From Oceaniglobus ichthyenteri (lineage in GTDB: Bacteria; Pseudomonadota; Alphaproteobacteria; Rhodobacterales; Rhodobacteraceae), in assembly GCF_003057885.1 (NCBI RefSeq), contig NZ_QAGK01000021.1, positions 1 to 37,214 on the forward strand: DNA of 37,214 nucleotides. The letters are read 5' to 3'. This document shows positions 13,452 through 37,014 of this stretch, piece after piece; position 1 is the stretch's first letter; every line of letters begins with the position of its first letter. The translations under genes and the position numbers were made by a program. The notes under the pieces were generated by a model. It saw only the letters and a program-made list of their open reading frames with translations. It was not told the origin of the DNA and searched no databases.

Positions 13452-13485
13452 TCCCACAGGATTGCCCCGCAAAAGCCGCCGGTCG

Positions 13486-13591: not shown

Positions 13592-13605
13592 TTGCGCTTG
13601 CGCAA
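13592..13605. promoter_or_regulatory. NnrR/FNR-type box upstream of norC
   Basis: TTGCG-CTTG-CGCAA, a perfect dyad, lies 63 bases before the norC ATG. It matches the paz/nnrR box at both halves, so one regulator probably activates nir and nor together. Confidence 0.8.
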
Positions 13606-13668
13606 AGTCGCATCCTTGACCCCCTGTTAGACAGGGCGGGATTGCAACTGCGAATGGGAGGCCCGCGC

Positions 13669-14121
13669 ATGGCCGAATTCCTGACTAAAAGCCGGGCGCG
13701 CAATATATTCTATGGCGGATCACTGTTTTTCGTCGTCGTCTTTATTGTGCTGGTCGCGCAAAGCCACCGATACGTGGTCAAGACATCCACCTCTGGAATG
13801 GAGCTGACCGAGGCGGTCGCCCATGGCAAGGAAGTGTGGGAGCGCAACAGCTGTATCAACTGTCACACCCTGCACGGTGAAGGCGCGTATTTCGCCCCCG
13901 AACTGGGCAATGTGATGACCCGCTGGGGCGTCATGGATGATCCCGAAGGGGCCTATGAAATCCTTGATGGCTGGATCGAGTCACAGCCCAGCGGCGTCGA
14001 GGGGCGCCGCCAGATGCCATATTTCGAACTGACCGAAGAGGACAAGCGCGGCCTTGCCGAATTCCTCCGCTGGGCGGATCAAACCGACACGCAGGGCTGG
14101 CCGCCCAATGACGCAGGATAA
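13669..14121 (+). CDS. norC: Nitric oxide reductase cytochrome c subunit
   Basis: A 150-residue membrane-anchored cytochrome c of cNOR. The N-terminal helix (NIFYGGSLFFVVVFIVLVAQ, 12-31) is followed by a periplasmic domain with one haem c site, Cys62-x-x-Cys65-His66 (CINCH); the Met in GRRQMPYF is the likely sixth ligand. Start ATG 13669 after GGGAGG gives the normal family length; a start at 13555 would run through the NnrR box. First gene of norCBQD. Confidence 0.96.
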   Translation: MAEFLTKSRARNIFYGGSLFFVVVFIVLVAQSHRYVVKTSTSGMELTEAVAHGKEVWERNSCINCHTLHGEGAYFAPELGNVMTRWGVMDDPEGAYEILDGWIESQPSGVEGRRQMPYFELTEEDKRGLAEFLRWADQTDTQGWPPNDAG

Positions 14122-14132
14122 GAGGCAAACAC

Positions 14133-16303: not shown

Positions 16304-16306
16304 GCC

Positions 16307-18205: not shown

Positions 18206-18206
18206 C

Positions 18207-18383
18207 ATGCACCGTATCCTTTACCCCGCCCTGGTTTTTCTGCCCTCGCTTGCCTTTGCCCAAGGGTTTGAGAGGCCAATCCCCAACGCCCAGACCGCCA
18301 CCGCCGAAGGCTGGTTTCTGGCCGCCTCGATCGCGTTTCTGCTCGCACTTCTGGCGGTTCATATGCTGGTGCGGCGCCGGTGA
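18207..18383 (+). CDS. Small exported/membrane protein after norD (NnrT position)
   Basis: A 58-residue ORF starting one base after the norD stop, behind AGGAGAG. It has a signal-like N-terminus (ILYPALVFLPSLAFAQG), a short polar stretch (FERPIPNAQTATAEG) and a C-terminal membrane helix (WFLAASIAFLLALLAVHML) ending in RRR. Its stop overlaps the next gene's GTG. The place matches nnrT of the R. sphaeroides norCBQDnnrTU cluster, but I cannot confirm homology. Confidence 0.7.
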   Translation: MHRILYPALVFLPSLAFAQGFERPIPNAQTATAEGWFLAASIAFLLALLAVHMLVRRR

Positions 18384-18637
18384 CACATGACCCCGGGCGC
18401 GCGGGCTGGGGGGTGCGCAAGCTGGCCCTTGCGCTGTATCCCTTTGGGGCGGGGGCGGTGGCGATCAACCTGTTCATGGCCGGGTTGTTCGCACCGATGA
18501 TCGGGTTGCCGACGATCCCGCCCGGCTGGTCGGTTCTGGGCGGCGCAATCTTTGGGGTTCCGGCCACATGGGCCTTTGCGCGCCACATCCGGTCCCTGAT
18601 GGATCGCGCCGACGGCACCTCCCCGCCCCGCCGCTGA
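18380..18637 (+). CDS. Small two-helix membrane protein in the nor operon
   Basis: An 85-residue ORF starting with GTG 18380, overlapping the previous stop (GTGA). An ATG at 18387 is out of frame. It has two hydrophobic segments (LALALYPFGAGAVAINLFMAGLFAPMI in parts, about 15-41, and VLGGAIFGVPATWAFA, about 52-67) and a basic C-terminus. No family recognised. The coupling to norD and the preceding small gene suggests a role in NOR assembly or the NO response. Confidence 0.68.
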   Translation: MTHDPGRAGWGVRKLALALYPFGAGAVAINLFMAGLFAPMIGLPTIPPGWSVLGGAIFGVPATWAFARHIRSLMDRADGTSPPRR

Positions 18638-18645
18638 CTGAAGGC

Positions 18646-19107
18646 TTAGCGCAGGTTGGGCACCGCGCCGGGGCCTTTTGGCGCGCCATCCTGCACCGCC
18701 ATAAGCAAAGAGCGCGCAATCCGTTCGGCGCGCAGGATCACATGATCGGCCCCTTGCGCCGTGCAAACCTGATGTGCGGTTTCGCGAAACAGCATCAGCC
18801 AGCGGTCAAAATGAACCGAGGTCACCGGAAGGCCCACGTGTTTTGGCACCGGCGCCCCGTGATACCGCCCGGTCATCAGCGCCACCGAAGACCAGAATTC
18901 AACCATCCGGTCCAGATGCGGCCCCCAATCGGTGATCCGCGCGGCAAAGATCGGGCCAAGCATGTCATCCTGCCTGATCCGGTCATAAAACCGGTGCACG
19001 AGCCGGGTCAGCACCTCTTCATTCAGGCCGGTCTGGTCCATCAGCATCGCGGTCATTTCCGGCCGGGCCGAGGCGATGCGCGGGGTGTCTGGCGATGTGT
19101 CTGTCAT
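18646..19107 (-). CDS. Group III truncated haemoglobin
   Basis: A 153-residue truncated globin of the P/III group. Evidence: LVHRFYDRIRQDDMLGPIF with B10 Tyr41, the WGPHLDRMVEFWSSVALMTGRYHG block, and the likely proximal His99 in TSVHFDRWL. Start ATG 19107. It is divergent from nsrR and shares the intergenic NsrR-like operator, which argues for an NO-related job such as detoxification; the function of group III globins is not settled. Confidence 0.9.
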   Translation of the reverse strand: MTDTSPDTPRIASARPEMTAMLMDQTGLNEEVLTRLVHRFYDRIRQDDMLGPIFAARITDWGPHLDRMVEFWSSVALMTGRYHGAPVPKHVGLPVTSVHFDRWLMLFRETAHQVCTAQGADHVILRAERIARSLLMAVQDGAPKGPGAVPNLR

Positions 19108-19150
19108 TGTGGCCTCCGGGGATGGCGATCTTGCGCGATGTGATAAACCT

Positions 19151-19179
19151 GCTAATAGGTATTGTAAATACATATTAGC
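19151..19179. promoter_or_regulatory. NsrR-like operator between globin and nsrR
   Basis: A 14-1-14 imperfect dyad (12 of 14 pairs), with core AGGTAT-N5-ATACAT, centred at 19165. It lies 12 bases before the nsrR ATG and 44 before the globin start. The architecture fits NsrR sites, and the core recurs at 19645-19661. Autoregulation plus control of the globin is inferred. Confidence 0.7.
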
Positions 19180-19190
19180 CGGAGGGCCCG

Positions 19191-19646
19191 ATGCGCCTTA
19201 CCTCATTCACCGATTACGGGCTGCGGATGCTGATGCGGATGGCCAGCGCGCCCGAGCGTGCGTTTTCCACGGCGGATCTGTCGGCGGAATTCAATCTGTC
19301 GCGCAATCACCTGAGCAAGATCATGCAACATCTGTCGCGCGCCGGAATTGTCAGCACCCGGCGCGGGGGCGGGGGCGGCGCGGTTCTGGCGATTCCGGCG
19401 CAGGACCTGCGCCTTGGCCGGTTGATCGCGCTTCTGGAAGAGGATCAGCCGATTGTCGAATGTTTTGGCCCCAGCCCAAGCAAATGCACGATTTTGGGCC
19501 AGTGCCGCCTGAAATCCCGCCTGCGCAGTGCCGAGCGGGCGTTTCTGGCCGATCTTGATCACACCACCCTTGCAGATATCGCCCTGCCCGCCCGCAATGG
19601 CGAAATCGCCCCGGCCCCCTTGAATGAAGGCCCGGCCGCCACATAG
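19191..19646 (+). CDS. nsrR: NsrR, Rrf2-family nitric oxide sensor-repressor
   Basis: A 151-residue Rrf2 regulator starting MRLTSFTDYGLRMLMRMA, typical of NsrR. The winged helix (about 25-60) contains LSAEFNLSRNHLSKIMQHLSRAGIV. Three cysteines, Cys91, Cys99 and Cys105, match the cluster-binding spacing of NsrR. NO damages the [Fe-S] cluster and relieves repression. ATG 19191 follows GGAGG. Operators before itself and after its stop frame the likely regulon: globin, nsrR and the DUF454 gene. Confidence 0.92.
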   Translation: MRLTSFTDYGLRMLMRMASAPERAFSTADLSAEFNLSRNHLSKIMQHLSRAGIVSTRRGGGGGAVLAIPAQDLRLGRLIALLEEDQPIVECFGPSPSKCTILGQCRLKSRLRSAERAFLADLDHTTLADIALPARNGEIAPAPLNEGPAAT

Positions 19647-22787: not shown

Positions 22788-23990
22788 ATGCTTGATGCTT
22801 ATATCTATGACGGTTTGCGCAGCCCGATCGGCAGTTCGGGTGGCACGCTTGCCGCCATGCGCCCCGACGATCTGTTGGCCGGGGTGATCCGCCCCTTGCT
22901 GGCGCGCCACACGCTTGCGGCCACGGATATTGATGATGTGATCATTGGCTGTGCCAATCAGGCGGGCGAAGACAGCCGGTGTGTGGCGCGTCACGCCGCC
23001 CTGTGCGCGGGTCTGCCGGTCGAGGTGCCGGGCACCGTCATTCAACGCAACTGCGGCAGCGGTCTGGGGGCGATGGTGTCTGCCGCCCACGCCCTGACCT
23101 CGGGCGAGGCCCGGGTCATCCTGAGCGGTGGCGTGGAAAGCATGAGCCGCGCGCCGTTTGTGATTGCCAAAACCGCCCGCCCCTATGCCCGGCAGATGGA
23201 GTGGTACGACAGCGCGGTTGGCGCCCGGTTCCCCAACCCAAAGCTTGAGGCAGAGTTCGGATCGGATTCGATGCCCCAGACCGCCGACAACATGGCCCAG
23301 GACCATGGCATCAGCCGCGAACAGGCCGACGCCTTTGCGCTGCGCTCGCAACACGGCTGGGCCAGGGCGCAGGCCAATGGGGTCTTTGCCAATGAAATAA
23401 CGCCGATCACCCTTCCCGGTGGGCGTGGCCGCCCCGACACCGTGATCGACACCGATGAACACCCCCGCCCCCAAAGTGATGCCGAAACACTTGCCAAATT
23501 GCGCCCGCTTTTCCCCGGCGGCGTGACCACGGTGGGCAATGCTTCGGGGTTGAATGATGGCGCGGTGGCGCTGATCATGGGGGGGCAATCGGCGCAAACA
23601 TGCATCGGCGCGGCCCCGATCGCGCGGGTGCTGGCCAGTGCGGTTGCCGGTGTGGCGCCGCGGATCATGGGCTTTGGCCCGGTGCCCGCCTCGCACAAGG
23701 CGCTTGCGCGGGCCGGGCTGTCCCTGTCGGATATGTCGGTGATCGAAATAAACGAGGCCTTCTCGGCTCAGGTTCTGGGCTGTCTCGCCGGGTTGGGATT
23801 GGCCTTTGACGATGAGCGGGTAAACCCCAATGGCGGGGCCATCGCCATGGGCCATCCGTTGGGCGCCTCGGGACCGCGCCTTGTGCTGAACGCGATTCAT
23901 GAAACCCGCCGCCGGGGGGGCAAATATGCGCTGGTGTCCATGTGTATCGGCATGGGTCAGGGGATCGCCCTTGTGTTAGAGGTGGTGTAA
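22788..23990 (+). CDS. Acetyl-CoA acyltransferase (thiolase)
   Basis: A 400-residue thiolase II family protein close to 3-oxoadipyl/acetoacetyl-CoA thiolases. All catalytic residues are present: Cys89 in QRNCGSG, His356 in NPNGGAIAMGHPLG and Cys386 in CIGMGQG. It is thus a genuine thiolase, unlike the one at 35373. It is followed 51 bp later by the acylating aldehyde dehydrogenase, probably co-transcribed. Substrate undetermined. Confidence 0.92.
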   Translation: MLDAYIYDGLRSPIGSSGGTLAAMRPDDLLAGVIRPLLARHTLAATDIDDVIIGCANQAGEDSRCVARHAALCAGLPVEVPGTVIQRNCGSGLGAMVSAAHALTSGEARVILSGGVESMSRAPFVIAKTARPYARQMEWYDSAVGARFPNPKLEAEFGSDSMPQTADNMAQDHGISREQADAFALRSQHGWARAQANGVFANEITPITLPGGRGRPDTVIDTDEHPRPQSDAETLAKLRPLFPGGVTTVGNASGLNDGAVALIMGGQSAQTCIGAAPIARVLASAVAGVAPRIMGFGPVPASHKALARAGLSLSDMSVIEINEAFSAQVLGCLAGLGLAFDDERVNPNGGAIAMGHPLGASGPRLVLNAIHETRRRGGKYALVSMCIGMGQGIALVLEVV

Positions 23991-24041: not shown

Positions 24042-25439
24042 ATGACCGATGCCCACACCACCATCGCCGCCCTGATTGCCAGGGCGCGTGCCGCAATGGC
24101 CGATTTTGCCGATGCCACCCAGGAACAGGCAGACGCGGCGGTGACCGCCCTGGCCTGGGCCATTTACGAACCCACCCGCGCCCGCGCCATGGCAGAGCAG
24201 GCGGTGGATGAAACCGGTCTCGGCGATGTGGAAAGCAAGGTGATCAAAAATCAGCGCAAGACCTTTGGCTGCCTGCGCGATCTGATGCGCATTCCCAGCG
24301 TTGGCATCATCGAAGACCTGCCCGAACGCGGTTTGGTGAAATACGCCAAACCGGTGGGCGTGGTGGCGGCGGTCAGCCCGTCAACCAACCCCACCGCGAC
24401 CCCGGCAAACAAGGCGATGTTCGCGATCAAAAGCCGCAATGCGGTGATCATCGCGCCGTCGCCGTCGGGGTGGGGGGCCACCAACACCGCCGTCACCCAC
24501 ATGCGCGCCGAATTGCAAAAGGCCGGGTTTCCCGCCGATCTGGTGCAAATCCTGCCTGCGCCAGTGAACAAGGCCCTGACCCAGGCGTTGATGGAACAGG
24601 CCGATCTGGTGGTGGTGACCGGATCGCAAAACAATGTGCGGCGCGGCTATTCCTCGGGCACGCCGACCATCGGGGTGGGGGCGGGCAATGTGCCGGTGGT
24701 GATTGATGCCGATGCCGATCTGGAGGATGCGGCCGAAAAAATCTGCCGCTCGAAAATCTTTGACAATGCCACCTCTTGTTCTTCGGAAAATTCGGTTTTG
24801 ATTCATGATGCGGTGTATGACGCGGCCATCGCCGCCCTGCGCCGTGCCGGGGGGTATCTGTGCAACGGCGATGAGAAATCCCGCATTCGCGATACATTGT
24901 GGGAAAACGGCCATCTGAACCGCCGGGTCATCGCGAAAGACGCGGCAACCCTGTGTGATCTGTTTGAACTGCGCCCCGAGGCGCAGGGCGCCAAATTCTT
25001 CATGGTCGAGGAAGGCACACCAGACCCGGCCAGCCCGTTCACCGATGAAAAGCTATCCCTGGTGCTGAGCGTGTACCGGATCAGCGATATGGATGATGCG
25101 GTGGCGCAATTGCGCACCATTCTGGATGTCTGCGGCAAAGGCCATTCTGTTGGCATTCACACCAACACCCCCGTCCATGCCACCCGGTTGGCCGAAGAGA
25201 TCGACGTGGTGCGCGTTCTGGTCAATCAGGCCCATACCTTTGCCAATGGCGGCAGCTTTGACAATGGGTTGGAATTTACCCTGTCCATGGGCGGCGGCAC
25301 CTGGGCGGGCAATTCGATCAGTGAAAACCTGAACGCCCGCCATTTCATGAACATCACCCATCTGGTGCGCACCATCCCCGAGGATCGCCCCGGCGAGGCC
25401 GATCTGTTCGGCCCCTATTGGGACCGGTACGGTAAATAA
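24042..25439 (+). CDS. CoA-acylating aldehyde dehydrogenase (SauS-like)
   Basis: A 465-residue NAD(P)-dependent dehydrogenase of the EutE/SauS group, converting an aldehyde plus CoA to an acyl-CoA or the reverse. The nucleophile is Cys246 in NATSCSSENS; glycine-rich GTPTIGVGAGNVPVVI and PVGVVAAVSPSTNP are typical. Length and sequence resemble sulfoacetaldehyde dehydrogenase (acylating) SauS, but no sauT or sauU gene is nearby, so another aldehyde, for example malonic semialdehyde, is equally possible. It follows the thiolase. Confidence 0.88.
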   Translation: MTDAHTTIAALIARARAAMADFADATQEQADAAVTALAWAIYEPTRARAMAEQAVDETGLGDVESKVIKNQRKTFGCLRDLMRIPSVGIIEDLPERGLVKYAKPVGVVAAVSPSTNPTATPANKAMFAIKSRNAVIIAPSPSGWGATNTAVTHMRAELQKAGFPADLVQILPAPVNKALTQALMEQADLVVVTGSQNNVRRGYSSGTPTIGVGAGNVPVVIDADADLEDAAEKICRSKIFDNATSCSSENSVLIHDAVYDAAIAALRRAGGYLCNGDEKSRIRDTLWENGHLNRRVIAKDAATLCDLFELRPEAQGAKFFMVEEGTPDPASPFTDEKLSLVLSVYRISDMDDAVAQLRTILDVCGKGHSVGIHTNTPVHATRLAEEIDVVRVLVNQAHTFANGGSFDNGLEFTLSMGGGTWAGNSISENLNARHFMNITHLVRTIPEDRPGEADLFGPYWDRYGK

Positions 25440-25456: not shown

Positions 25457-27442
25457 TTAAGCGATATGCACAACCGGATGCGCGGGGGCCCCTGTGCCCG
25501 TGCCGCGCGCCCCGGTTTTGGGGCAAATCCATTCGCCCCCCTTGGGCAAATCGGCGCCCGATGCAAACACGCGCAACACCTGACCTGCAGCGTTGCGCAA
25601 GGCCGGTGTGTCGCCGTCTTGTGCGTGCCAATCATCCGCCCCAAGGGCCAGCATCAGCGTTGAAATCAGTTCCGACCCGATGCGCGGGTTGAACCGGCGA
25701 TCAACCAATCCGGCGCGGGTGAAATAGCCCCGATCGGCATCATCCAGCGTATCCAGAACCACATCCACCCCATGCCCGACCCCGGCCAAAACCGTTTCAC
25801 CAAAGCGCAGGGCATTGGCCGTGGCATCGCCAAATTCCTCGGCGGGGCTGGCCTCGGTCGATTTGACGTATAGCACCGGCGCCAACCCCGATGCCGATGC
25901 AAATTCGCCAAGCGCCCGCGCCGTGACCCAAGGCGAGGCACTGCGCGAAATGGTGAATTGCACCGCGTCGATCAGGCCGGGGTTTTGGGCGGCAAAGGCG
26001 CTCAGCTCGTCCATTTCGCCCAGGGTAAATCCATGACTGATCAGGTGGTTGAACCGCGCACCGGTGTGTTTGGCCGCATCGGTGCGGTTGACCCGCGACA
26101 GGCACAACGACACGCCCGTGTCAGATTTCAGCGCCTTGATATCGGGGATCAACCCCGCCACATCGTTCCAGCCCAAAACCAGTTCAAGCCGCGCAATCAA
26201 CCCGGCGTGATCTTTCAACAGCGCCGCCTCGGCGGGGTTGGGCATACCATAGAGATACACCTGAAACCTATGGCCCACCCCACACATCAGCTCCATCCGC
26301 CGCCGGGTGGTGGCATCGGCCAGATCCTGAACAGGCACCCGCAACCCGCGCAGGCCCATTTCCCATAATGCCATCACCGGATAATCATTGCGCGCGATCT
26401 TGCGGCGAAACTCATCCACCGCGCCCGAGGGCGCCACGCTTAACTCTTCGGCCCAGGCATGGCGCATATCCACCGCAATGCCGGCGCGCAGCGCGGTTTT
26501 GACATGGGGGCGGGCGACGATATCGGGGGCCTTTTCATCGCCCTCGGCCAGGGTCGCGCCGTTGCTGCGATGATACCGGGCGACATGGCCGGTTTCATGC
26601 ACATCCAGGGTCAAAAACCCCAGCTTGGCCGCATCGTTGCGCCCTTTTTGATCGCCCCCCTCAATGCGGTACATTTCGGAATAATCGTGGCGCACGAAAC
26701 AGGTGGACGGGGTGACATAATATTCGGTTTCGCCAATCAGATCGTACCAGAAATTATGCACATGGGCGCTGAACAACGCCTCGGGCTTGTGGGTGCGGAT
26801 CAAATCCAACATCCAGCCGCGCCCCGGTTCGTCAATGTTGTCATAACTGCCCGGCTCGTCCTGGCGGGTGATATAGGGCGGATAATGGCTGAACAGAAAC
26901 ATCCGCGCGCCGCTGTGTTCTTGCATATACCCTTCCAGCCAGGCCGCCTGCTGCGCCTCGGCCGGATCGCCGGAATTGATCAGCGGTGAATTGATCACGA
27001 TGAAATGGCAATCCTCATGGGTGATGGCATAATAATCCTTGCCGAAATGTTGGCGGTACAGGGCGATAAATTCACCGTTCACCATGCCCGCAGGCATCCA
27101 GCTGACCGGTTTGTCGCCGATATCGTGATTGCCCGGCACCAGATGCAGCGGTGCGCGCAATTCTTTGGCCAGGTCGTGAAAATTCTCGGCAGCAGGCCCA
27201 TAGCTGGGCAGTTCGGGCACCGGATTGATCATATCGCCCAGATGGATGATGAACGCCGGATCGACCCTGTTGATCTGCGAAAATACATGGCGCGCGCGCG
27301 GATTTGCCTCGGCGTTGGCGGGATAGGGCGAGGCGGAAAAATCCTCTTTTTCGTTCACATGGGTGTCAGAGACAATCGATACCCTGAAAAGGATGGGGCC
27401 GTCGGGGCGTTTGTTCTGAAAAGACGGGGCGCGCGTTGCCAT
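25457..27442 (-). CDS. Calcineurin-like metallophosphoesterase with unknown C-terminal domain
   Basis: A 661-residue protein from ATG 27442 after AGGAGA; an upstream extension is not needed. Residues about 18-235 are a metallophosphoesterase with all metal motifs: Asp26-x-His28, Gly69-Asp70, Gly104-Asn105-His106-Asp107, His186 and His227-x-His229. Residues about 330-640 are unlike any family I recognise; repeated strand-helix segments with conserved-looking ends (LMCGVGHRFQVYLYG, LVLGWNDVAGLIPDIKA, DAVQFTISRSAS) suggest a TIM-barrel-like domain. No signal peptide seen. It is minus strand, between the aldehyde dehydrogenase and the crotonase. Confidence 0.85.
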   Translation of the reverse strand: MATRAPSFQNKRPDGPILFRVSIVSDTHVNEKEDFSASPYPANAEANPRARHVFSQINRVDPAFIIHLGDMINPVPELPSYGPAAENFHDLAKELRAPLHLVPGNHDIGDKPVSWMPAGMVNGEFIALYRQHFGKDYYAITHEDCHFIVINSPLINSGDPAEAQQAAWLEGYMQEHSGARMFLFSHYPPYITRQDEPGSYDNIDEPGRGWMLDLIRTHKPEALFSAHVHNFWYDLIGETEYYVTPSTCFVRHDYSEMYRIEGGDQKGRNDAAKLGFLTLDVHETGHVARYHRSNGATLAEGDEKAPDIVARPHVKTALRAGIAVDMRHAWAEELSVAPSGAVDEFRRKIARNDYPVMALWEMGLRGLRVPVQDLADATTRRRMELMCGVGHRFQVYLYGMPNPAEAALLKDHAGLIARLELVLGWNDVAGLIPDIKALKSDTGVSLCLSRVNRTDAAKHTGARFNHLISHGFTLGEMDELSAFAAQNPGLIDAVQFTISRSASPWVTARALGEFASASGLAPVLYVKSTEASPAEEFGDATANALRFGETVLAGVGHGVDVVLDTLDDADRGYFTRAGLVDRRFNPRIGSELISTLMLALGADDWHAQDGDTPALRNAAGQVLRVFASGADLPKGGEWICPKTGARGTGTGAPAHPVVHIA

Positions 27443-27711
27443 GAACAGGTCTCCTGAATGGGGCGTCCTGCCTTGGATCAGCGACATGGACAGCGGGATG
27501 AGGGCGCATGAACGTTTCACACACGGCCCCCTCGCACCGCAGCCTAGGCAGCCGCCCCCGCAAGGCAAGAAGATTTTTGGCGCCGGTGCGGCAACGCAGA
27601 CCTGTTGCCCGAACGCGCGGGGAATGGCACACAAACAAGGATCAGGCGCAGGCGCGCGCGGCCCTCACGGCGGGGCCGGTCATATAAAACGCTCAGAGAA
27701 CTGGAAAACCG
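27443..27711. promoter_or_regulatory. Divergent promoter region, phosphoesterase/crotonase
   Basis: A 269-bp gap between two divergent genes must hold both promoters. I see no clear dyad operator, RNA or small gene. Confidence 0.4.
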
Positions 27712-28446
27712 ATGGCAGTCACTTATGAATCCCGCGATGGCATTGCGATCATCACGATTGACCGGGCAGAAAAGCATAACGCAATCAACCGCGCGGTGTG
27801 TCAGGGGCTGTTGGACGCCTGGGAGCGTTTCGCACGCGACGATGACAAAGTCGCCGTTCTGACCGGCGCGGGCGATCAGGCGTTCTGTGTCGGGGCCGAT
27901 CTGAAGGATTTTCCCGGCGAAATCTGGCAGGCCCTGCCCAACCTTGCGGTGCCCTGCGACAAACCCATCATCGCGGCGATCAGCGGTTATGCCGTGGGGG
28001 CGGGGTGCAGCCTGGCGTTATATTCCGATATGATCGTGGCCAGCGACACCGCCAGCTTTATCTATCCCGAAGGCAAGGTCGGGATATTTCAGGGCATCAT
28101 GGGCGGTTTTCCCAAAAAGATGCCTTATAACGTCGGGCTGGAATGGGCGCTGACGGGGGATCCGATGAGCGCACAGCGCGCCTATGATATCGGTTTTGTA
28201 AACAAGGTCTGTACGCCGGGCACGCAACGCGATGTCGCGCTGGAACTGGCCGGTAAAATCGCCACCAAAGCGCCGCTTGTGGTGCAGGGGTTGAAAAACG
28301 TCGCCCTGCAAACCCTTCCGCGCAGCCCGATGGATGATTTTTATCCGCAAAAGCGCCGGCTTGATACCATCGCCAACAGCGAAGACGCCAAGGAAGGCGT
28401 CAGCGCCTTTGCACAAAAGCGCCGCCCGGATTTTCAGGGGCGATAA
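27712..28446 (+). CDS. Enoyl-CoA hydratase/isomerase (crotonase) family, atypical active site
   Basis: A 244-residue crotonase-fold protein. Oxyanion-hole segments CVGADLKDF (59-67) and SGYAVGAGC (91-99) are normal. Of the two hydratase glutamates of rat ECH, the first (Glu144, in GGGCE) is Ser100 here; the second (Glu164) is kept as Glu120 in YPEGK. With a single Glu it may be an isomerase, hydrolase or other crotonase rather than a simple hydratase. It converges with tctA. Confidence 0.88.
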   Translation: MAVTYESRDGIAIITIDRAEKHNAINRAVCQGLLDAWERFARDDDKVAVLTGAGDQAFCVGADLKDFPGEIWQALPNLAVPCDKPIIAAISGYAVGAGCSLALYSDMIVASDTASFIYPEGKVGIFQGIMGGFPKKMPYNVGLEWALTGDPMSAQRAYDIGFVNKVCTPGTQRDVALELAGKIATKAPLVVQGLKNVALQTLPRSPMDDFYPQKRRLDTIANSEDAKEGVSAFAQKRRPDFQGR

Positions 28447-28486: not shown

Positions 28487-30022
28487 TCAGCCCGCCGTGC
28501 CCTTGGCTGCCTTTTCCGCCGCCTTGCCCCGTTCGCGTTTCTGGCGCGCCTCTCTGAGGGTCGATCTGATGATCAGCACGACGGAAACCGCCGTCAGGCA
28601 CCAGAACAGGATCGTGATCGGACCCCGGGCAAAGATTTCAAAATCGCCCCGTGACATCAGCATCGATTGTCGGAAACTGTTTTCCAGCATCGGCCCAAGA
28701 ATGAAGGCAATCAGGAACGGGGCCGCCGGAAACCGCAACAGCAGCATGACATAGCCCACAACCCCCATCACCAGCATCACCGCAACGTCAAAGATCGAGT
28801 TGTTGATCGCAAAAACGCCGAAAATACACAAAACCAGAACCCCGGGAAACAGCAGGTTGGCCGGCACATCGGCAATATAGCGAAACGCCCGAATGGCCAC
28901 CGATCCGATGATCAAAAGCAGGAAGGAACTGGCGATCAGCCCAAGGAACAGGGCATAGACGATATCGGCATTGTTCTGAAACAACAGCGGCCCGGGTGTG
29001 AGGTTATGCACCATGAACGCGCCGATGATGATCGCGGTGATCACATCGCCCGGAATCCCCAGCGACAACAGCGGGATCAGCGTGGCACCGGCCACGCCGT
29101 TATTGCCCGCCTCGGCGGCGGCCACGCCTTCCAATTCGCCCTTGCCGAACTTGTCGCGGTTGGGCGAGGCGCGCCGCGCCTCGGAATAGGACAGGAATGC
29201 CGAAGGTGCCGCGCCAATACCGGGAATGGCCCCCATGAACACCCCGATGGCACTGCCCCGAAAAATCGATTTCAGGCAGCGTTTGAAATCGAACCAGCTT
29301 AGCTTGGAATAGCCGATGGTCCTGACCTGAAGGTCTTTATGCCCGGGATTGCGGATATATGAAATGATCTCGGGCAGGGCGAACAGCCCGATTAGAACCG
29401 CCACGAAATTCAGCCCGCCGCGCATGTCGATCGACCCAAAGGTGAACCGTTCGGTCCCGCCGATGAAATCCAGCCCGATGGTTGACAGCAACAGCCCCAG
29501 CGTGGCCGCCACGACCCCCTTGAGCAGACTGTCGCCCGACACCCCGGCAATGATGGTCAGGGAAAAGAAGATCAGCGTGAACATTTCCGGCGGACCGAAA
29601 TTCAACGCAAACGAGGCCAGCCAGGCGGCAAAGACGATCAGCGAAATGTTCGAGATGAAATCAGCCAGGCACGAGGCATAAAGCGCCATCGACAGGGCTT
29701 CGCCCGCGCGGCCCTGTTCGGCCAGGGGATATCCGTCAAGCACCGTCGCCGATGAGGCCGGCGTGCCCGGTGTCTTGATCAAAATCGCCGGAATAGATCC
29801 GCCAAAGATGCCGCCCTTGTACACGCCCAACAGCAGCAAAATCCCGAAAATCGGCTGAAGCGCAAAGGTGAACGGCAGGGTCAGCGCCACCGCCATGGTG
29901 GCCGACATGCCCGGAATTGCCCCCGCCACCACGCCAATGAACACGCCAAGCGCCAGAAACAAAAGGCTTTGCCATTGCGCGACCAGAATAAAACCGGCGC
30001 TAAGAGCTTCGACAAACGTCAT
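28487..30022 (-). CDS. tctA: Tripartite tricarboxylate transporter, large permease TctA
   Basis: A 511-residue inner-membrane protein of the TctA family with about 11-12 helices and the glycine-rich repeats GVVAGAIPGMSATMAVAL and GVFMGAIPGIGAAPSAF. It uses an ion gradient to import a carboxylate delivered by TctC. The start overlaps tctB by four bases (ATGA). Confidence 0.95.
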   Translation of the reverse strand: MTFVEALSAGFILVAQWQSLLFLALGVFIGVVAGAIPGMSATMAVALTLPFTFALQPIFGILLLLGVYKGGIFGGSIPAILIKTPGTPASSATVLDGYPLAEQGRAGEALSMALYASCLADFISNISLIVFAAWLASFALNFGPPEMFTLIFFSLTIIAGVSGDSLLKGVVAATLGLLLSTIGLDFIGGTERFTFGSIDMRGGLNFVAVLIGLFALPEIISYIRNPGHKDLQVRTIGYSKLSWFDFKRCLKSIFRGSAIGVFMGAIPGIGAAPSAFLSYSEARRASPNRDKFGKGELEGVAAAEAGNNGVAGATLIPLLSLGIPGDVITAIIIGAFMVHNLTPGPLLFQNNADIVYALFLGLIASSFLLLIIGSVAIRAFRYIADVPANLLFPGVLVLCIFGVFAINNSIFDVAVMLVMGVVGYVMLLLRFPAAPFLIAFILGPMLENSFRQSMLMSRGDFEIFARGPITILFWCLTAVSVVLIIRSTLREARQKRERGKAAEKAAKGTAG

Positions 30023-30510
30023 GGCAGCCTCACGAACTGGCCTTGCGGAATGGCAACTCCGGCGACCTTGCTGAAAAAGAAATAAAGCCCAAGGGGCAGA
30101 ACCACGCCCACAACAAGACCCAGGATCAGATGCTTTGAATTGCTCATCAGCACCAGCAGGATAAACGTCACCATGCAGACCCAGACCATGCCAAACACCG
30201 GCAGCGCAAAATATGCACCCATCAAAATGGCGGCCAGCCCGGCAAGGCGCATCAGCTCGGGTGGGCTGGCGGTCTGACTGTCGACAATCACGTCAGGGGG
30301 GGGCGGGGTCATCGCCGCGCGCAGGGTCATCGCCGCACCACACAACAGCATTATCCAGCAGATGATCTTTGGCCAGAAACTGGGCGCCAGGGCCCTTAAC
30401 GGCGGGCGCTGGGGCAGCGCAACATAGGCCGGGATCAACCACCACAAGGTAAGAGCAGACAGCGCCATGACGCCAAGTCCGATCATCAATTCAAAACGTC
30501 GCGAAAGCAT
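30019..30510 (-). CDS. tctB: Tripartite tricarboxylate transporter, small permease TctB
   Basis: A 163-residue membrane protein with four predicted helices, typical of TctB. ATG 30510 follows GGAG. It overlaps tctA and is separated from tctC by 194 bp that contain a hairpin. Confidence 0.88.
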   Translation of the reverse strand: MLSRRFELMIGLGVMALSALTLWWLIPAYVALPQRPPLRALAPSFWPKIICWIMLLCGAAMTLRAAMTPPPPDVIVDSQTASPPELMRLAGLAAILMGAYFALPVFGMVWVCMVTFILLVLMSNSKHLILGLVVGVVLPLGLYFFFSKVAGVAIPQGQFVRLP

Positions 30511-30704: not shown

Positions 30705-31688
30705 TCACTTGATTTCCAGATCCAGTTCAACAACCAGACGGCGGAAGCTGTCATAGGCGCTGCTGACGAATTCCACCGACTCCTCGGGTGACATCAACTC
30801 AACGATCGAACCGCCCGATGTCATGTATTTCAGGAACGCTTCGTCCTCGACGGCGGCGGCCAGCCATTCGGCCCATTTTCCGGCGGCTTCATCGGTCAGA
30901 TCGGCGGGGCCTGCAATGCCGGTCCAGCCGACAAGCGCCTTGAGATCGGGCTTGCCCAACTCATCCACGGTGGGCGCGTCAAAGCCATCGATACGCTTTG
31001 AGGATGTGACAAGCAGCGGCACCATCTGGCCGCTGTCGACAAACGGCGCGGCGGGCGACGTGCTGCCGCAATAAAAATCCGATGTGCCCTGCAACACCGC
31101 CGTCAGGGCCTGGCCATCACCCTCGGTCGGGATGTGGATGACATTCTGCGACAGGTTTTCGACGCCAAACGCCTCAAGCACCATCAGCGGGCCGAAATGG
31201 GGCAATGTGCCCACGCCTGCCGAGCTGAACAAAACCTGGCCGGGGTTCTCGTTGACCTTGGTGATCAGCTCTTCAATGGTGGTGATGCCGGAATTGCTGT
31301 TGACGACACAGGCGACGGGGTTGATTTCGTAAATGCCGACAAAGCGGAATTCATCCACCGTATAGGGCAGTTTCGGGTTCATCGCCGGGTTCACCGTGTG
31401 CGATCCGACCCGCGCCACCAACATCGTATAGCCATCACCATCGGCGTCGCGCACGGCAACCGATCCGATTGCGCCGCCCGCGCCGGTTCTGTTGGACAGA
31501 ACGGTGGGCTGGGGCATGTGTTTGGTCAATGCCGTTGACAGCGCGCGCGCCGACAGATCGCTGGCGCCACCGGGGCCATAGGGAATGACCACCTGGATCG
31601 GACGATCAGGGTATTCAGCAGCGGCCGGTGCGGCCAGAGCCGTTGCGCAGGCAGCACCCATCGTCAGGGCTATAAGGGTCTTTTTCAT
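30705..31688 (-). CDS. tctC: Tripartite tricarboxylate transporter binding protein TctC
   Basis: A 327-residue periplasmic binding protein. ATG 31688 follows GGAGGAG and opens a signal peptide (MKKTLIALTMGAACATALAAPAAA). The mature start YPDRPIQVVIPYGPGGASD and the NRTGAGGAIGS loop are TctC/Bug hallmarks; this fold binds mono- and dicarboxylates. Substrate cannot be read from sequence. It is the first gene of tctCBA, divergent from the acyl-CoA operon, so it probably imports that operon's substrate. Confidence 0.94.
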   Translation of the reverse strand: MKKTLIALTMGAACATALAAPAAAEYPDRPIQVVIPYGPGGASDLSARALSTALTKHMPQPTVLSNRTGAGGAIGSVAVRDADGDGYTMLVARVGSHTVNPAMNPKLPYTVDEFRFVGIYEINPVACVVNSNSGITTIEELITKVNENPGQVLFSSAGVGTLPHFGPLMVLEAFGVENLSQNVIHIPTEGDGQALTAVLQGTSDFYCGSTSPAAPFVDSGQMVPLLVTSSKRIDGFDAPTVDELGKPDLKALVGWTGIAGPADLTDEAAGKWAEWLAAAVEDEAFLKYMTSGGSIVELMSPEESVEFVSSAYDSFRRLVVELDLEIK

Positions 31689-31861
31689 CTTTTCTCCTCC
31701 CAAGTTTGATATTGTGCCGGACGTTGCCGACAGTCGTCCTTATGCGAACCCCGGTTCAGGAACCGGACGGATCAGCATGTCTTTACAGATCGGCACAGGG
31801 GCGGGGCGTGTGGGTGTTTTTCCACCCCCCACATCCGTTTTGCGAATCTGTATTTGATTTT

Positions 31862-32409: not shown

Positions 32410-33183
32410 ATGACGGATCTGGTACTTGAGACACGCCCCTTTGACGGTGTCGTATTGCTGACGATCAATCGCCCCGAGGCGCGCAATGCGCTCAACACTG
32501 CGTTGCGTCATGAACTTACCGACAAGATCGGCGCGCTTGGCCGGGATGACAGCGTGCGCTGCATTGTCATGACCGGCGACAACAAGGCATTCATGGCCGG
32601 GGCCGACATCAAGGAAATGCTGCCAAAGGGCACCGCCGAAATCACCCAGTCCAATGTGCGCCGCCTGTGGGCGATCATTGCCGATCTGCCCAAACCTCTG
32701 ATTGCGGCGGTCAATGGCGTGGCCTTTGGCGGGGGCTGCGAACTGGCCATGCATGCCGATATCATCGTCGCCGGGGAAGGCGCGAAATTCGGCCAGCCCG
32801 AGGTGACGGTGGGCGTCATGCCCGGCGGTGGCGGCACCCAACGCCTGCTGCGCGCGGTCGGCAAATTCAAGACGATGAAAATGGTGCTGACCGGTGAACC
32901 GGTATCCGGGCGCGATGCGTTCGAAATGGGTCTGGCCAGCGAAGTCGTGGCCGATGACACGGTTTTGCCCCGCGCTCTGGAAATCGCACAGCGCATTGCC
33001 GCCCTGCCGCCCCTGGCCGTGCGCCGGATCAAAGAGGTGGTGCTGGCGGGCGAAGACACCAGCCTGGCCGCCGGTCTGATGCTGGAGCGGCGCACCTTTG
33101 ACACCTTGTTTGACACCGCCGACAAAGTCGAAGGCATGACCGCCTTTGCCGAAAAGCGCCCGCCAAAGTTTACCGGCCGCTAA
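32410..33183 (+). CDS. Enoyl-CoA hydratase
   Basis: A 257-residue crotonase with both hydratase glutamates, Glu111 in FGGGCELAM and Glu131 in FGQPEVTVG, and PGGGGTQRLLRAVG; a true 2-enoyl-CoA hydratase giving 3-hydroxyacyl-CoA. First gene of the rightward operon; the synthetase follows 55 bp later. It would act on the product of the GcdH-like enzyme. Confidence 0.93.
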   Translation: MTDLVLETRPFDGVVLLTINRPEARNALNTALRHELTDKIGALGRDDSVRCIVMTGDNKAFMAGADIKEMLPKGTAEITQSNVRRLWAIIADLPKPLIAAVNGVAFGGGCELAMHADIIVAGEGAKFGQPEVTVGVMPGGGGTQRLLRAVGKFKTMKMVLTGEPVSGRDAFEMGLASEVVADDTVLPRALEIAQRIAALPPLAVRRIKEVVLAGEDTSLAAGLMLERRTFDTLFDTADKVEGMTAFAEKRPPKFTGR

Positions 33184-33238
33184 CCCCGCCCCGATTTTCC
33201 GCACAAGCCCCGACAGCGCCACAAGGCAGGAGCACGCC

Positions 33239-35368
33239 ATGACAATTTCACCAGACACTTCAACCAAAAGAGACGGGGTGGCCTGTCTGCTGGCGCCCAG
33301 ATCCATCGCGATCATCGGTGTGTCGCAGGATTTCAACAAACTGAACGGCCGGGTGATGAAATTCCTGCTTGAAAAGGGCTATGAGGGCGAAATTTTCCCG
33401 ATCAACCCGAAATACCAGGAGGTGGGCGGGCGGCGCTGTTATCCCAGCATTTCCGATCTGCCCGGCCCTGTCGATCTGGCCGTTCTGTCGATCCCGGCGC
33501 GTATGGTCGCGGACGAGCTGGAAAATGCCGGGCGGCAAGGTGTGCGCGCCGCGGTCGTGTTCAGTTCGGGGTTTGGCGAAATGGGCGAAGAGGGCAAGGC
33601 GCTGGAAGAGCAGATCCTTGACATCGCACGGCGCCATGACATCCGGCTGTGCGGCCCCAATACCCTGGGCCTGATCAACAGCTTTGAAAAGGTCTATGCC
33701 ACCTTCACCCAGTTCGGGATGGGCGAAACGCCCAGCGGACCAATCGGGTTTGTCACCCAGTCGGGGGCCTTTGGCACCGCGATTGCTGCCTTGGCGCGGC
33801 GGCGGGGGCTGGGCCTTGGGTATTTTGTCAACACCGGCAATGAATCCGATGTCACCTTTGCCGATGTCGCCACCCATGTGATGGCCGATGAGCGGATCAG
33901 GGTCGGCGCGGGATATATCGAAGGTCTGAAAGACGGGCCCGGCTTTGTCGAGGTGGCGAAAAACGCCCTTGAGGCGGGCAAACCCTTTGTCGTGACCAAG
34001 GTGGGGCGCACCGCGTCGGGCGCGCGCGCGGCCGCCTCGCACACCGGATCATTGGCCGGGGAACACCGGGTGTTTGAAGGCATTTCAAACCAGTTCGGGG
34101 TTTGCCGGGCGCGCAACGAAGAACAGATGCTGGATCTGGTGGATATGTTTTCCACCACCCCGGTGCCCCGGGGGCGGCGCGTGGCGATCATCACCCAATC
34201 GGGGGGGGCGGGCGTGTTGATGACCGACCGCGCCGCCGATCTGGGGCTTGAGGTGCCGGATCTGGCCCCAACAACCAAGGCGCGCCTGGCCGAGGTGCTG
34301 CCGTCCTTCGCCGCACTTGGCAATCCGGTGGATGTGACGGCCCAGTTCATTTCCGACCCCTCAATGTTGAAGGAAAGCGTCAAGGCGGTGCTGGCCGACC
34401 CCAACATTGATATTGCGGCGATCTGGCTGCAACTGATGGATGGGTTTGTTGAACCGCTGACGCAGATTTTCCGCGAACTTCTGGCCGAAACCGAAAAACC
34501 GTTTGTGGTGGCCTGGGTTGCGGCGCCCGAACACGGGCTGAAGGCGCTGCGCGATCTGGGCATCTGCACCCTGCGCGGCGGCGAACCGGTGATCGACGCC
34601 ATCGATGCGCTGTGCACCTGGGGCACGGCGCGCGATCGCTGGGCCGCCGACGCACCCGCCCGGGCGGCGCGGGTGTTGCCGGATCCGGGCCTGAGCGGTG
34701 GGCGCGGGCAGTTGGGCTCTGACATTGCGGGGGCCTGTCTTGAGGCGGCAGGCGTGCCATTGGCGCGCGCCCGTCTGGCCAAGGATGCCGAAGCCGCCGT
34801 TACCGCCGCCGACACGCTGGGATATCCTGTCGCGCTGAAGATTGAATCCCCCGACATTGCCCACAAGACCGAACTGGACGGCGTCGAAATCGGCCTTGCC
34901 GACGCCGATGCGGTGCGCGCGGCGGGCAACCGGATTCTGGCCCGGGCGCGCGAACTGGCCCCGAATGCGCGGCTGTCGGGCCTGTTGGTGCAGGAAATGA
35001 AATCCGGCACGGTCGATCTGGTGGTCGGGCTGCGCAACGATCCGGTGTTTGGAATGGTGGTGATGGTGGGCCTTGGCGGCATTCTGGTCGAGGTTCTGGA
35101 GGATGTGGCATTCCGCAAGGCCCCCGTGACCGAGGCAGAGGCCGATGAGATGCTGTCGCGGTTGCGCGGTGCGGCGATTCTGGATGGGGTGCGCGGCAAG
35201 CCCGGCGTGGATCGCGCGATGGTGTCGCGGTTCATTGCGCGGGTATCGGAATTTGGCGCCGCCAACGCCGCCCACCTGGAAGAGCTTGATCTGAATCCCG
35301 TTCTGGCGGGCCCCGAAGAAATTGTCGCGGTCGATTGGCTGCTGGTGGAAAAACAGGAACAGGAGTGA
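33239..35368 (+). CDS. NDP-forming acyl-CoA synthetase (ACD-like)
   Basis: A 709-residue single-chain enzyme activating an organic acid to its CoA ester with NTP, releasing NDP. Order: CoA-binding domain (about 15-110), ligase-CoA domains with phospho-His268 in ASHTGSLAG and THQSG-like VTQSGAFGT, then a C-terminal ATP-grasp domain with the second relay His in SPDIAHKTELDGV. Start ATG 33239 follows GGAG; an in-frame start at 33146 would overlap the hydratase. Next gene starts 4 bp after its stop. Substrate unknown, probably the acid imported by TctABC. Confidence 0.92.
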   Translation: MTISPDTSTKRDGVACLLAPRSIAIIGVSQDFNKLNGRVMKFLLEKGYEGEIFPINPKYQEVGGRRCYPSISDLPGPVDLAVLSIPARMVADELENAGRQGVRAAVVFSSGFGEMGEEGKALEEQILDIARRHDIRLCGPNTLGLINSFEKVYATFTQFGMGETPSGPIGFVTQSGAFGTAIAALARRRGLGLGYFVNTGNESDVTFADVATHVMADERIRVGAGYIEGLKDGPGFVEVAKNALEAGKPFVVTKVGRTASGARAAASHTGSLAGEHRVFEGISNQFGVCRARNEEQMLDLVDMFSTTPVPRGRRVAIITQSGGAGVLMTDRAADLGLEVPDLAPTTKARLAEVLPSFAALGNPVDVTAQFISDPSMLKESVKAVLADPNIDIAAIWLQLMDGFVEPLTQIFRELLAETEKPFVVAWVAAPEHGLKALRDLGICTLRGGEPVIDAIDALCTWGTARDRWAADAPARAARVLPDPGLSGGRGQLGSDIAGACLEAAGVPLARARLAKDAEAAVTAADTLGYPVALKIESPDIAHKTELDGVEIGLADADAVRAAGNRILARARELAPNARLSGLLVQEMKSGTVDLVVGLRNDPVFGMVVMVGLGGILVEVLEDVAFRKAPVTEAEADEMLSRLRGAAILDGVRGKPGVDRAMVSRFIARVSEFGAANAAHLEELDLNPVLAGPEEIVAVDWLLVEKQEQE

Positions 35369-35372
35369 CGTG

Positions 35373-36581
35373 ATGAAAGGCAAGACAGCCATCGCAGGGG
35401 TGGGGCGCACGCCCTACAGCCGGGCCAAACCCGATGAACGGATCCTGACCGTTGACGAATATATCGCCTGGGCGGCGGAACTGGCGCTGGAAAGTGCGGG
35501 CATGTCGAAAAAGGATTTCGACGGTCAGGGCTTTGCCGTCTCCCACGCCGAAGCGGCCCACACGGTCAACTGGGCCTCGGCCACGGCCGAAAACCTGGGC
35601 TTGTCGCCCAAGTCAATTCTGCGCGGCGATCAGGGCGGGGCCAGTGCCGCATCGCTTTTGGTGCGGGCCTCGGCGATGATCGAGGCGGGCGTCGTTGACC
35701 GGTTTCTGATCGTGGGTGCCGATACCCCGCTGACGATCCCGTCGATTGCGCCGGGCCTGCCCCTGTCGCCCGAACGCACCCGCGGGGTGTATTGGGATTT
35801 TCAGGGCCCGTTCGGCGTGATGGGCGCCACCGCGCAATTCGCCATGAGCCAGCGGCGCTATATGGAACAGGCCGGAATTACCGAACAGCAACTTGGCAAG
35901 ATCGCATCCACCACCCGGTATCACGCATCGCTGAACCCCGGCGCAATTTACCGCACGCCCTATGATGTCGAGGAATACATGGCATCGCGGATGCTGTCCG
36001 ATCCGATCCGCCTTTATGATTGCGTGCCGATGGTGAATGGCGGGCTGGCCTATATCGTGACCTCGGCCAAGACCGCGCGCGCCGCGGTCGAGCGGCCGGC
36101 CTTTATGCTGGGCCATGCCGAGTTGAACAACTATTACGCCGGGCCGCGCAGCCACCCCGACATCACCGGCACCGGCTTTATCGAAACCGGGCCCGAGGCC
36201 TTTGCCATGGCCGGGATCACGCCAAAGGATGTGGATGTGTTCCTGCCCTATGACGATTATCCCTTTGTCGTCATGTTGCAACTGGAACACTATGGATTTT
36301 GCAAACGCGGCGAAGGCGGGCAATACGTCGAAAACACCGATTTCACCTTCAGGGGTGATCTGCCCCTGTCCACCGATGGCGGGCAGTTGTCGGGCGGGCA
36401 ACCGGGGGGCGCGATTGGCGGCTTCATGCCCATCGTCGAGGCCGTGACCCAGATCCGCGGCGAGGGTGGCGAACGCCAGGTCAAGGATGCGCAGATCGCC
36501 CTGGCCTCGGGATTTGGCGGCATCACCTATGGGCGCAACGCGCGCAGCTGCGTTTCCATCGTGTTCGGACAGGAGGGGTAG
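35373..36581 (+). CDS. Thiolase-like protein lacking catalytic Cys/His (Ltp2-like candidate retro-aldolase)
   Basis: A 402-residue thiolase-fold protein of the lipid-transfer/SCPx group. The nucleophilic Cys is absent: the loop reads RGDQGGASA (84-92). The GHP motif is GGQP, with Gln343 in place of His, and the C-terminal Cys loop is SGFGG. Kept are LEHYGFCKRGEGGQY and PYDDYPF, as in Ltp2, the aldolase partner of DUF35 proteins in steroid side-chain degradation. Classical thiolysis is therefore unlikely. Start ATG 35373, after AGGAG. DUF35 follows within 4 bp. Confidence 0.85.
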   Translation: MKGKTAIAGVGRTPYSRAKPDERILTVDEYIAWAAELALESAGMSKKDFDGQGFAVSHAEAAHTVNWASATAENLGLSPKSILRGDQGGASAASLLVRASAMIEAGVVDRFLIVGADTPLTIPSIAPGLPLSPERTRGVYWDFQGPFGVMGATAQFAMSQRRYMEQAGITEQQLGKIASTTRYHASLNPGAIYRTPYDVEEYMASRMLSDPIRLYDCVPMVNGGLAYIVTSAKTARAAVERPAFMLGHAELNNYYAGPRSHPDITGTGFIETGPEAFAMAGITPKDVDVFLPYDDYPFVVMLQLEHYGFCKRGEGGQYVENTDFTFRGDLPLSTDGGQLSGGQPGGAIGGFMPIVEAVTQIRGEGGERQVKDAQIALASGFGGITYGRNARSCVSIVFGQEG

Positions 36582-36585
36582 ACCC

Positions 36586-37014
36586 ATGAGCAAGACCATC
36601 ACCGGAACACCGCTGCCGGAAATCACCGACCAGACCAGACCATTCTGGGACGCGGCCAATGAAAACAAACTGGTCATGCAGAAATGCACCCGGTGCGGCA
36701 CGGTCAATTTTCCACCCAAACCCTGGTGCATCGAATGCGGCAGCCGCGATATCCCCTGGACCGAAGTCGGGCCAGGCGGCACCGTCTATTCCTTTACCAT
36801 CAGCCGCAGCGTGGCAATGAACTGGCCCGACTGGGACAAACAGCTGCCGGTTATCCTGTGTCTTGTCGATGTTGATGACGGGGCGCGGATGTATGCCCAG
36901 GTGGTGGATTGCGCGCCTGAAAAAATCGCCATCGGCATGCGGCTCAAGGCCACCTTTGCCCCGATCGGCGATGGGGTGTCGATCCCCAAATTCGTGCCTG
37001 CCGACACGGCATGA
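36586..37014 (+). CDS. DUF35 zinc-ribbon/OB-fold partner protein
   Basis: A 142-residue protein with a rubredoxin-like zinc ribbon (Cys34-x-x-Cys37 and Cys48-x-x-Cys51) and a C-terminal OB fold (GTVYSFTISRS to TFAPIGDG). DUF35 proteins bind acyl-CoA and form complexes with thiolase-like partners such as Ltp2. ATG 36586 follows AGGAGG. It is coupled to the preceding gene and precedes, across the junction, the gcdH-like gene by 125 bp. Confidence 0.92.
   Translation: MSKTITGTPLPEITDQTRPFWDAANENKLVMQKCTRCGTVNFPPKPWCIECGSRDIPWTEVGPGGTVYSFTISRSVAMNWPDWDKQLPVILCLVDVDDGARMYAQVVDCAPEKIAIGMRLKATFAPIGDGVSIPKFVPADTA

Follow-up and report, generated by a model that had tools for sequence, protein, structure and literature searches.

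A candidate aldolytic route for an omega-sulfonated short acid in a plasmid operon with a thiolase-fold/DUF35 pair

Contig NZ_QAGK01000021.1 of Oceaniglobus ichthyenteri, the 37,214-nucleotide stretch analysed here and referred to as the window, carries an operon of CoA-dependent enzymes built around a thiolase-fold protein and its DUF35 partner. Four of its genes, for an enoyl-CoA hydratase (ECH), an acyl-CoA synthetase, the thiolase-like protein and the DUF35 protein, span positions 32410-37014 with intergenic gaps of 55, 4 and 4 bp. As both contig ends share a direct overlap of 127 bp, the contig is a circle of 37,087 bp, and the open reading frame (ORF) at 53-1270, encoding a dehydrogenase of the GcdH (glutaryl-CoA dehydrogenase, GCDH) type, is therefore the next gene after the DUF35 gene, 125 bp on across the contig join. 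The circle encodes a replication initiator of its own as well as a ParA/VirC1-like protein. The operon consists of the following genes:

32410-33183, plus strand: enoyl-CoA hydratase (NF006007, PRK08138, 375 bits against a cut-off of 355), predicted to hydrate 2-enoyl-CoA
33239-35368, plus strand: NDP-forming acyl-CoA synthetase with CoA-binding, succinyl-CoA-ligase and ATP-grasp domains (Pfam) and His in SHTG
35373-36581, plus strand: thiolase-fold protein of the aldolase branch, predicted retro-aldolase, with the motif Y293-D294-D295, Gln338 and Gln343
36586-37014, plus strand: DUF35/ChsH2-type partner (Pfam PF12172 and PF01796), zinc ribbon and OB fold
53-1270, plus strand: GcdH-like acyl-CoA dehydrogenase, last gene of the operon, with Arg94 and Glu370 kept and Tyr369 replaced by Leu (human numbering)

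All five reading frames are as the initial annotation had described them, and Pfam and NCBIfam back their general names. The synthetase likely starts at the ATG at 33239; it matched four NCBIfam ligase models, each with a score under the cut-off, and both the thiolase-like protein and the GcdH-like dehydrogenase are likewise under the cut-off of every NCBIfam model shown. The hydratase contains what we take to be both crotonase glutamates, in GCELA and GQPE.

A pattern scan of a genome collection (84,980 species) yielded 39 loci with related genes. The counts below refer to a set of 36, made up of L005-L037, L041, L045 (a plasmid of Cupriavidus necator NH9) and the window, and leave aside L038-L040, L042 and L043 (36-39% identity). 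Several loci are cut by contig ends, many flanks are short and genes were called by a GC3-GC2 score, a rough gene caller, all of which affects gene counts per locus. DUF35 accompanies the thiolase-like gene in 34 of the 36 loci, the synthetase in 32, the GcdH-like gene (at least 60% identity) in 29, a LysR gene in 22 and a nearby ECH in 19. The type of transporter varies, being a TctC-type receptor, TRAP-TAXI or an ABC system of the SsuA/NMT1 kind. The conservation of gene content over the 36 loci argues against a chance grouping. The operon gene is rare in even samples of genomes, found in 1/385 of the host's class (the host itself) and in 1/399 and 2/397 of two orders, centre genomes included. 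The C. necator record gives its operon genes only general names, namely thiolase family protein, OB-fold protein and acetate-CoA ligase family protein.

The initial annotation had called the thiolase degenerate, and the residues bear this out. Where a thiolase has its nucleophile Cys and its catalytic His (GHP), the window protein reads GGA and GQP, with Gly at the Cys place and Gln at the His place. An alignment of 36 sequences, which omits L010, L030, L037 and L043 (L030 was examined separately), has Gly at this place throughout, with a Cys one position later in L009, L012 and L014. The motif Y-D-D-Y/F is present in all 36, and both Gln residues in all 35 that reach that far. Lacking both Cys and His, the product of 35373-36581 is ruled out as a plain thiolase. 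The available part of PMC12329534 describes Sal as an enzyme with the catalytic pair Tyr302/Cys304, Gln347 and Gln352 nearby and Gly for the thiolase Cys, and Ltp2 as using Tyr294 of YDHF together with Tyr344. A true Ltp2 requires YDHF and Tyr344, for which we found YDDY and Gln; a true Sal requires Tyr302 and Cys304 (YDCY), of which the Tyr is kept and the Cys is Asp in 36/36 sequences. With YDD in the active site rather than YDHF or YDCY, the pair is thus neither Ltp2 nor Sal.

A sequence comparison with solved structures places Sal (9myr, 1.6e-50), 4u4e and Ltp2 (6ok1) nearest, and family-profile scores are 262 bits for Sal, 230 for 4u4e, 189 for the thiolase 7yvy, 181 for Ltp2 and 141 for BbsB. 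Two trees of 26 and 29 rows, with some long branches, separate Ltp2, Sal, IpfD, 4u4e and the proteins with the YDD motif from the Cys-thiolases at 100/99. Within the former branch the YDD proteins group together as a single clade (99/98 and 99/99), placed next to Sal with moderate support (87/85 and 83/86). An Ltp2/ChsH2-like retro-aldol pair had been proposed in the initial annotation, with clustering among non-aldolases as its counter-sign; in these small trees the pair clusters with described aldolases. Judged by sequence, the protein belongs to the thiolase-fold aldolase branch of Ltp2, Sal and IpfD, and the retro-aldol idea is supported at the level of the family, with an active site of its own. 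Since the pair falls in this branch and keeps the catalytic Tyr, acetyl-CoA and an aldehyde are its likely products. The DUF35 protein has a zinc ribbon of spacing C-x2-C-x10-C-x2-C and its best PDB matches are 9myr_B and 6ok1_B; with its ribbon, its OB fold and a gene beside that of the thiolase-fold subunit, it has the features of a DUF35/ChsH2 partner.

The YDD clade further includes a protein of pDB1 (L059, 6884-8050) with 88% identical kin on pJP4 (H73). On pDB1 the gene comes with a DUF35 gene, and its neighbours are an acyl-CoA synthetase gene and one of the TauD/TfdA family. Among the more distant loci, L038 contains a DUF35 domain fused to a short-chain dehydrogenase (9116-10354), adjoining a YDD-type thiolase-fold gene.

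The closest solved relative by sequence, at ~34% identity, is the bile-acid side-chain aldolase Sal/Shy of Comamonas testosteroni (9myr). It shares the thiolase fold with DUF35, Gly for the nucleophile Cys, the catalytic Tyr and both Gln residues (347 and 352 in Sal). In contrast to Sal, Asp replaces the catalytic Cys304 and the hydratase is of the crotonase type, and whereas Shy has a C3H1 zinc site and a fused MaoC domain, the DUF35 protein here is separate with a C4 site. Ltp2-ChsH2(DUF35) of Thermomonospora curvata (6ok1) has the same fold, partner, Tyr of YDHF and C4 zinc ribbon in DUF35, but its YDHF His is Asp here, its Tyr344 is Gln and identity is ~28%. IpfDE of ibuprofen degradation is likewise a thiolase-fold/DUF35 pair on a catabolic plasmid (pIBU218, where the IpfD ORF was assigned by position) and lies on the same tree branch. 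It differs by a YDA motif and an aromatic dihydrodiol substrate, and is accompanied by an AMP-binding ligase and a ring dioxygenase instead of an acyl-CoA dehydrogenase (ACAD) and ECH. In the part of PMC9195938 at hand, the ipfDE step is called both a retro-aldolase giving propionyl-CoA and an 'ipfDE-encoded thiolase'. The operon resembles the Bbs operon of benzylsuccinate degradation in combining a GcdH-like ACAD, an ECH and a DUF35/thiolase pair (BbsA/BbsB), although BbsB is a true thiolase in retaining both Cys and His. In addition, the Bbs operon encodes a dedicated dehydrogenase, BbsCD. HMG-CoA lyase and citramalyl-CoA lyase, which have other folds, cleave small 3-hydroxyacyl-CoAs in a retro-aldol manner.

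The GcdH-like protein matches human GCDH over nearly its full length (567 bits). In all 23 copies compared (22 loci and the window, out of 29 loci with the gene; residues matched by motif), the Arg94-Ser95 stretch and the catalytic Glu370 are kept, while Tyr369 has become Leu. The host's other, chromosomal GcdH, 58% identical, has Tyr at the 369 place. In the accessible part of PMC3169403, Tyr369 of GCDH is described as bonded to the Arg and in contact with the carboxylate lost as CO2. The operon copies thus lack one of the two residues, Arg94 and Tyr369, of a decarboxylating GCDH, and their sequences point to a substrate with a terminal anion that would be desaturated without decarboxylation.

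Further genes of the window bear on the operon:

30705-31703, minus strand: TctC-type (Bug) receptor, clustering with operon TctC-type genes such as those of L008 and L021; its NCBIfam match is a weak one to TRAP-TAXI only
28487-30510, minus strand: TctA-/TctB-like membrane parts of a transporter, named from sequence and position beside TctC
24042-25439, plus strand: SauS, CoA-acylating sulfoacetaldehyde dehydrogenase (NF047625, 752 bits against a cut-off of 600), with a presumed link to the operon
22788-23990, plus strand: canonical Cys-type thiolase (3-oxoadipyl-CoA thiolase-like), 51 bp before SauS, required by a thiolytic route only

Homologues of the receptor at 30705-31703 end the operon in other genomes. 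The reading frame at 28487-30022 is without an NCBIfam match, and a 36% homologue of it adjoins the operon in L032.

In dissimilation through sulfoacetaldehyde, taurine, isethionate and sulfoacetate are the known feeders. The host shares the elements of this process, with SauS on this plasmid and two genes for Xsc (sulfoacetaldehyde acetyltransferase; 959 and 933 bits against a cut-off of 676) located elsewhere, on contigs C37 and C23; no Xsc was met in or beside the operon in the window. Xsc scores over the cut-off in 32 of the 35 further operon genomes (G1190, G1194 and G1197 are without it), compared with 34/300 and 74/297 background genomes of two orders (Fisher test against the background without its operon carriers, 3.6e-23 and 6e-15). 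When close kin are collapsed, by hand from record titles, it is present in 24/27 operon genomes (1e-17 and 3e-11). The host and most of the other operon genomes thus have the Xsc that a sulfoacetaldehyde-yielding sulfonate pathway calls for in the same genome. In G804, one strand bears genes for the thiolase-like protein, DUF35, TAXI, TRAP, Xsc (913 bits) and an acetate/propionate kinase (292.5 bits, barely under its cut-off of 293.4), and the divergent strand LysR, ECH, ACAD and acyl-CoA synthetase. In L026, the thiolase-like gene follows 3.1 kb after the end of Xsc (1047 bits), and a phosphate-acetyltransferase-like gene lies in the space between; in G1206 a LysR 75% identical to that of the operon stands ~1 kb before Xsc. 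A TauE/SafE (sulfite exporter) family gene is nearby in L009, L012, L014, L022, L033 and L035, of which three are close kin of one another, as are two others.

SauS is found near the operon in the window, L011, L017 and L022, and over the cut-off in 23/36 operon genomes, host included; 12/36 have no match, and G1211, with two partial pieces under the cut-off, is counted in neither group. An acylating dehydrogenase at 24042 had been suggested as the next step after the cleavage of a short carboxylate. The gene is real and, being SauS, makes sulfoacetaldehyde a better candidate than a plain aldehyde; lying apart from the operon and without a match in 12/36 operon genomes, it does not represent an obligate step. 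On the evidence of Xsc, SauS and TauE, a sulfonated acid is a likelier substrate than the plain short carboxylate originally assumed. ADP-forming ligases are described for sulfoacetate and 3-sulfopropionate, as far as the available part of PMC12890257 goes. No feeder of the Xsc branch by beta-oxidation or an aldolase appears among the literature matches listed, nor does any paper on 4-sulfobutanoate degradation among the open-access ones.

We consider the chance somewhat better than even that the operon breaks down a short acid with an omega-sulfonate by way of CoA esters, with 4-sulfobutanoate as the likeliest candidate. While gene content and its conservation, the family placement, the active-site residues and the link to Xsc by statistics and position are observed, the substrate, all of the reactions and what Asp does are inferred. 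4-Sulfobutanoate is glutarate with a sulfonate for one carboxylate, and by this analogy would suit a GCDH-like enzyme. It is proposed as substrate because retro-aldol cleavage to sulfoacetaldehyde and acetyl-CoA requires 3-hydroxy-4-sulfobutanoyl-CoA. The TTT transporter next to the operon, whose place is taken by TRAP or ABC systems in other genomes, would import the acid, and the NDP-forming synthetase would activate it to 4-sulfobutanoyl-CoA. The GcdH-like enzyme, its Arg holding the sulfonate, would desaturate this without decarboxylation, and ECH would hydrate the product to 3-hydroxy-4-sulfobutanoyl-CoA. The thiolase-fold/DUF35 pair would then make the retro-aldol cut to acetyl-CoA and sulfoacetaldehyde, with Tyr293 as base and Asp295, at the place of the Sal Cys304 or the Ltp2 His, as acid. 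Finally, Xsc, encoded elsewhere in the genome, would convert sulfoacetaldehyde to sulfite and acetyl phosphate. It is an even question whether, more broadly, this amounts to a new dissimilation pathway for the C4-sulfonate 4-sulfobutanoate, in which a new thiolase-fold aldolase class marked by YDD and two Gln residues replaces the dehydrogenase and thiolase of beta-oxidation and hands sulfoacetaldehyde to Xsc, the YDD class also serving further catabolic plasmids such as pDB1 and pJP4.

Two other roles were considered and set aside. For a steroid side-chain role, no steroid genes were recognised among the translated ORFs of the window, part of which were scanned against families. The linear alkylbenzenesulfonate carboxylate route came into consideration because it too needs carbon-carbon cleavage; in the part of PMC3746432 seen, this route of C. 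testosteroni KF-1 leads from 3-C4-SPC to 4-sulfoacetophenone. It would not explain Xsc, and none of its later genes, for which no dedicated search was made, is among the annotated neighbours.

The first rival to be weighed is a thiolytic sulfonate route, in which a 3-hydroxyacyl-CoA dehydrogenase (HAD) from elsewhere and a canonical thiolase (22788 here) would give acetyl-CoA and sulfoacetyl-CoA, SauS would form sulfoacetaldehyde for Xsc, and the pair would have another or accessory role. We regard it as unlikely. In its favour, the thiolase and SauS genes of the window lie 51 bp apart, SauS is frequent among the operon genomes, and the host is well supplied with HAD: four HAD queries gave no tblastn match within the window, but the genome holds ten PF02737 matches, four of them strong and none on the window's contig, C14. 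The earlier statement that the replicon lacks a HAD is therefore true and, as evidence for an aldolytic route from a 37-kb plasmid, weak; a short-chain dehydrogenase/reductase gene at 3548-4321 lies in the polyol gene cluster. In the 36 loci, a HAD family gene occurs in three and a canonical thiolase in two, the window included. However, the regions of SauS examined in 10 of the 22 other genomes with SauS over the cut-off all lack a canonical thiolase, and nine operon genomes with Xsc have no SauS match (G387, G388, G389, G804, G1189, G1193, G1198, G1205 and G1206), so that sulfoacetyl-CoA from a thiolase could not reach Xsc through SauS there. These nine include the three genomes whose operon has a HAD gene (G388, G389 and G1193). 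The G804 operon contains Xsc, yet no HAD, canonical thiolase or SauS was found in the 19 kb seen, and thiolase Cys and His are lost from the pair in the aligned sequences. Such absences are soft, as completeness is not given for genomes reached through loci. Together, the nine Xsc genomes without a SauS match and the ten SauS regions without a canonical thiolase favour direct release of sulfoacetaldehyde.

An aldolytic route for another sulfonate, either a longer or branched omega-sulfo acid or the last step in the beta-oxidation of an omega-sulfo fatty acid, with a different sulfo-aldehyde or propionyl-CoA as product, would fit the same Xsc, TauE and SauS evidence, and the relatives Sal and Ltp2 act on bulky substrates. 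It appears just as improbable as the thiolytic route, for Xsc acts on sulfoacetaldehyde and the closeness of the dehydrogenase to GCDH argues for an acyl chain of five atoms that ends in an anion. Slightly more doubtful still is a route in which a plain short (di)carboxylate, for example glutarate or one of its methylated relatives, undergoes aldolytic beta-oxidation and the co-occurrence of Xsc reflects lifestyle only. The GCDH-like enzyme does retain the carboxylate-binding Arg, aldehyde dehydrogenase genes are near three operon copies, and carboxylate carriers occur among TTT, TRAP and ABC transporters alike. Against this stand Xsc inside one operon and beside another, its strong enrichment, the change of Tyr369 to Leu and a chromosomal GcdH with Tyr that the host already possesses.

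Several observations weigh against the 4-sulfobutanoate route that we prefer. Genomes rich in Xsc may simply be those of large generalists, the comparison being unmatched for genome size, and only in G804 and L026 was Xsc seen at a distance of no more than 8 kb from the operon, being unlinked in the window and the other stretches seen. The frequency of SauS (23/36, given without a background rate) fits the thiolytic route or general sulfonate use. No LysR was found at the window copy, and 17/36 loci are without a nearby ECH, although some are cut and a 29% match 3.5 kb off in L030 is uncounted. L009, L012 and L014 carry a HAD family gene that ends a thiolase-like/DUF35/transporter run (~12.8-13.8 kb; TRAP); the nearest named model for this gene is an aldehyde-oxidising relative, at 184 of 500 bits far under the cut-off. 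In L024, L025 and L045, aldehyde dehydrogenase genes of the ordinary kind, not SauS, occur no more than 8 kb away, which could mean that the aldehyde meets another fate. In the available part of PMC12329534, Sal is dead when Cys304 is changed to Ser, Ala or His; a role for Asp at this place is one that we infer. The 4-sulfobutanoate model leaves unexplained these aldehyde dehydrogenases and the thiamine pyrophosphate (TPP) enzyme genes near L023, L033 and L035.

The latter TPP genes, which resemble those of 2-hydroxyacyl-CoA lyase (HACL) or acetolactate synthase (ALS), adjoin the operon; those of L023 and L035, the two scanned, are far under the Xsc cut-off. Elsewhere in the window, a second crotonase-family gene (27712-28446) adjoins the transporter and is perhaps no plain hydratase, as one of the two crotonase glutamates is lost (GCSLA). 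A metallophosphoesterase ORF (25457-27634) has a long C-terminal part without a Pfam match, and a 38% homologue directly precedes the thiolase-like gene in L013 (3433-5508). The same plasmid harbours a denitrification island at 9841-19646, with NirK (copper nitrite reductase) over its cut-off beside ORFs for a NorC/B/Q/D-like nitric oxide reductase, for regulators of the Crp/FNR and NsrR-like types and for an FGE/NirV-like protein, several of them named from sequence. A polyol/sugar ABC cluster with a mannitol dehydrogenase family gene occupies 2085-8512; its transport system appears broken, with the binding-protein gene split into two ORFs and one permease ORF short.

As a whole, these results offer a concrete substrate proposal for a conserved operon whose genes have had only general names. 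If the proposal is true, the pair would be the first aldolase of the thiolase fold, as far as we know, whose substrate is a small aliphatic acid instead of a steroid or an aromatic drug, and its active site would represent a new catalytic set in the thiolase fold. The route would also open a new way for organosulfonates to enter the sulfur cycle at its Xsc branch, which bears on the possible mineralisation of surfactant- and sultone-derived sulfonates.

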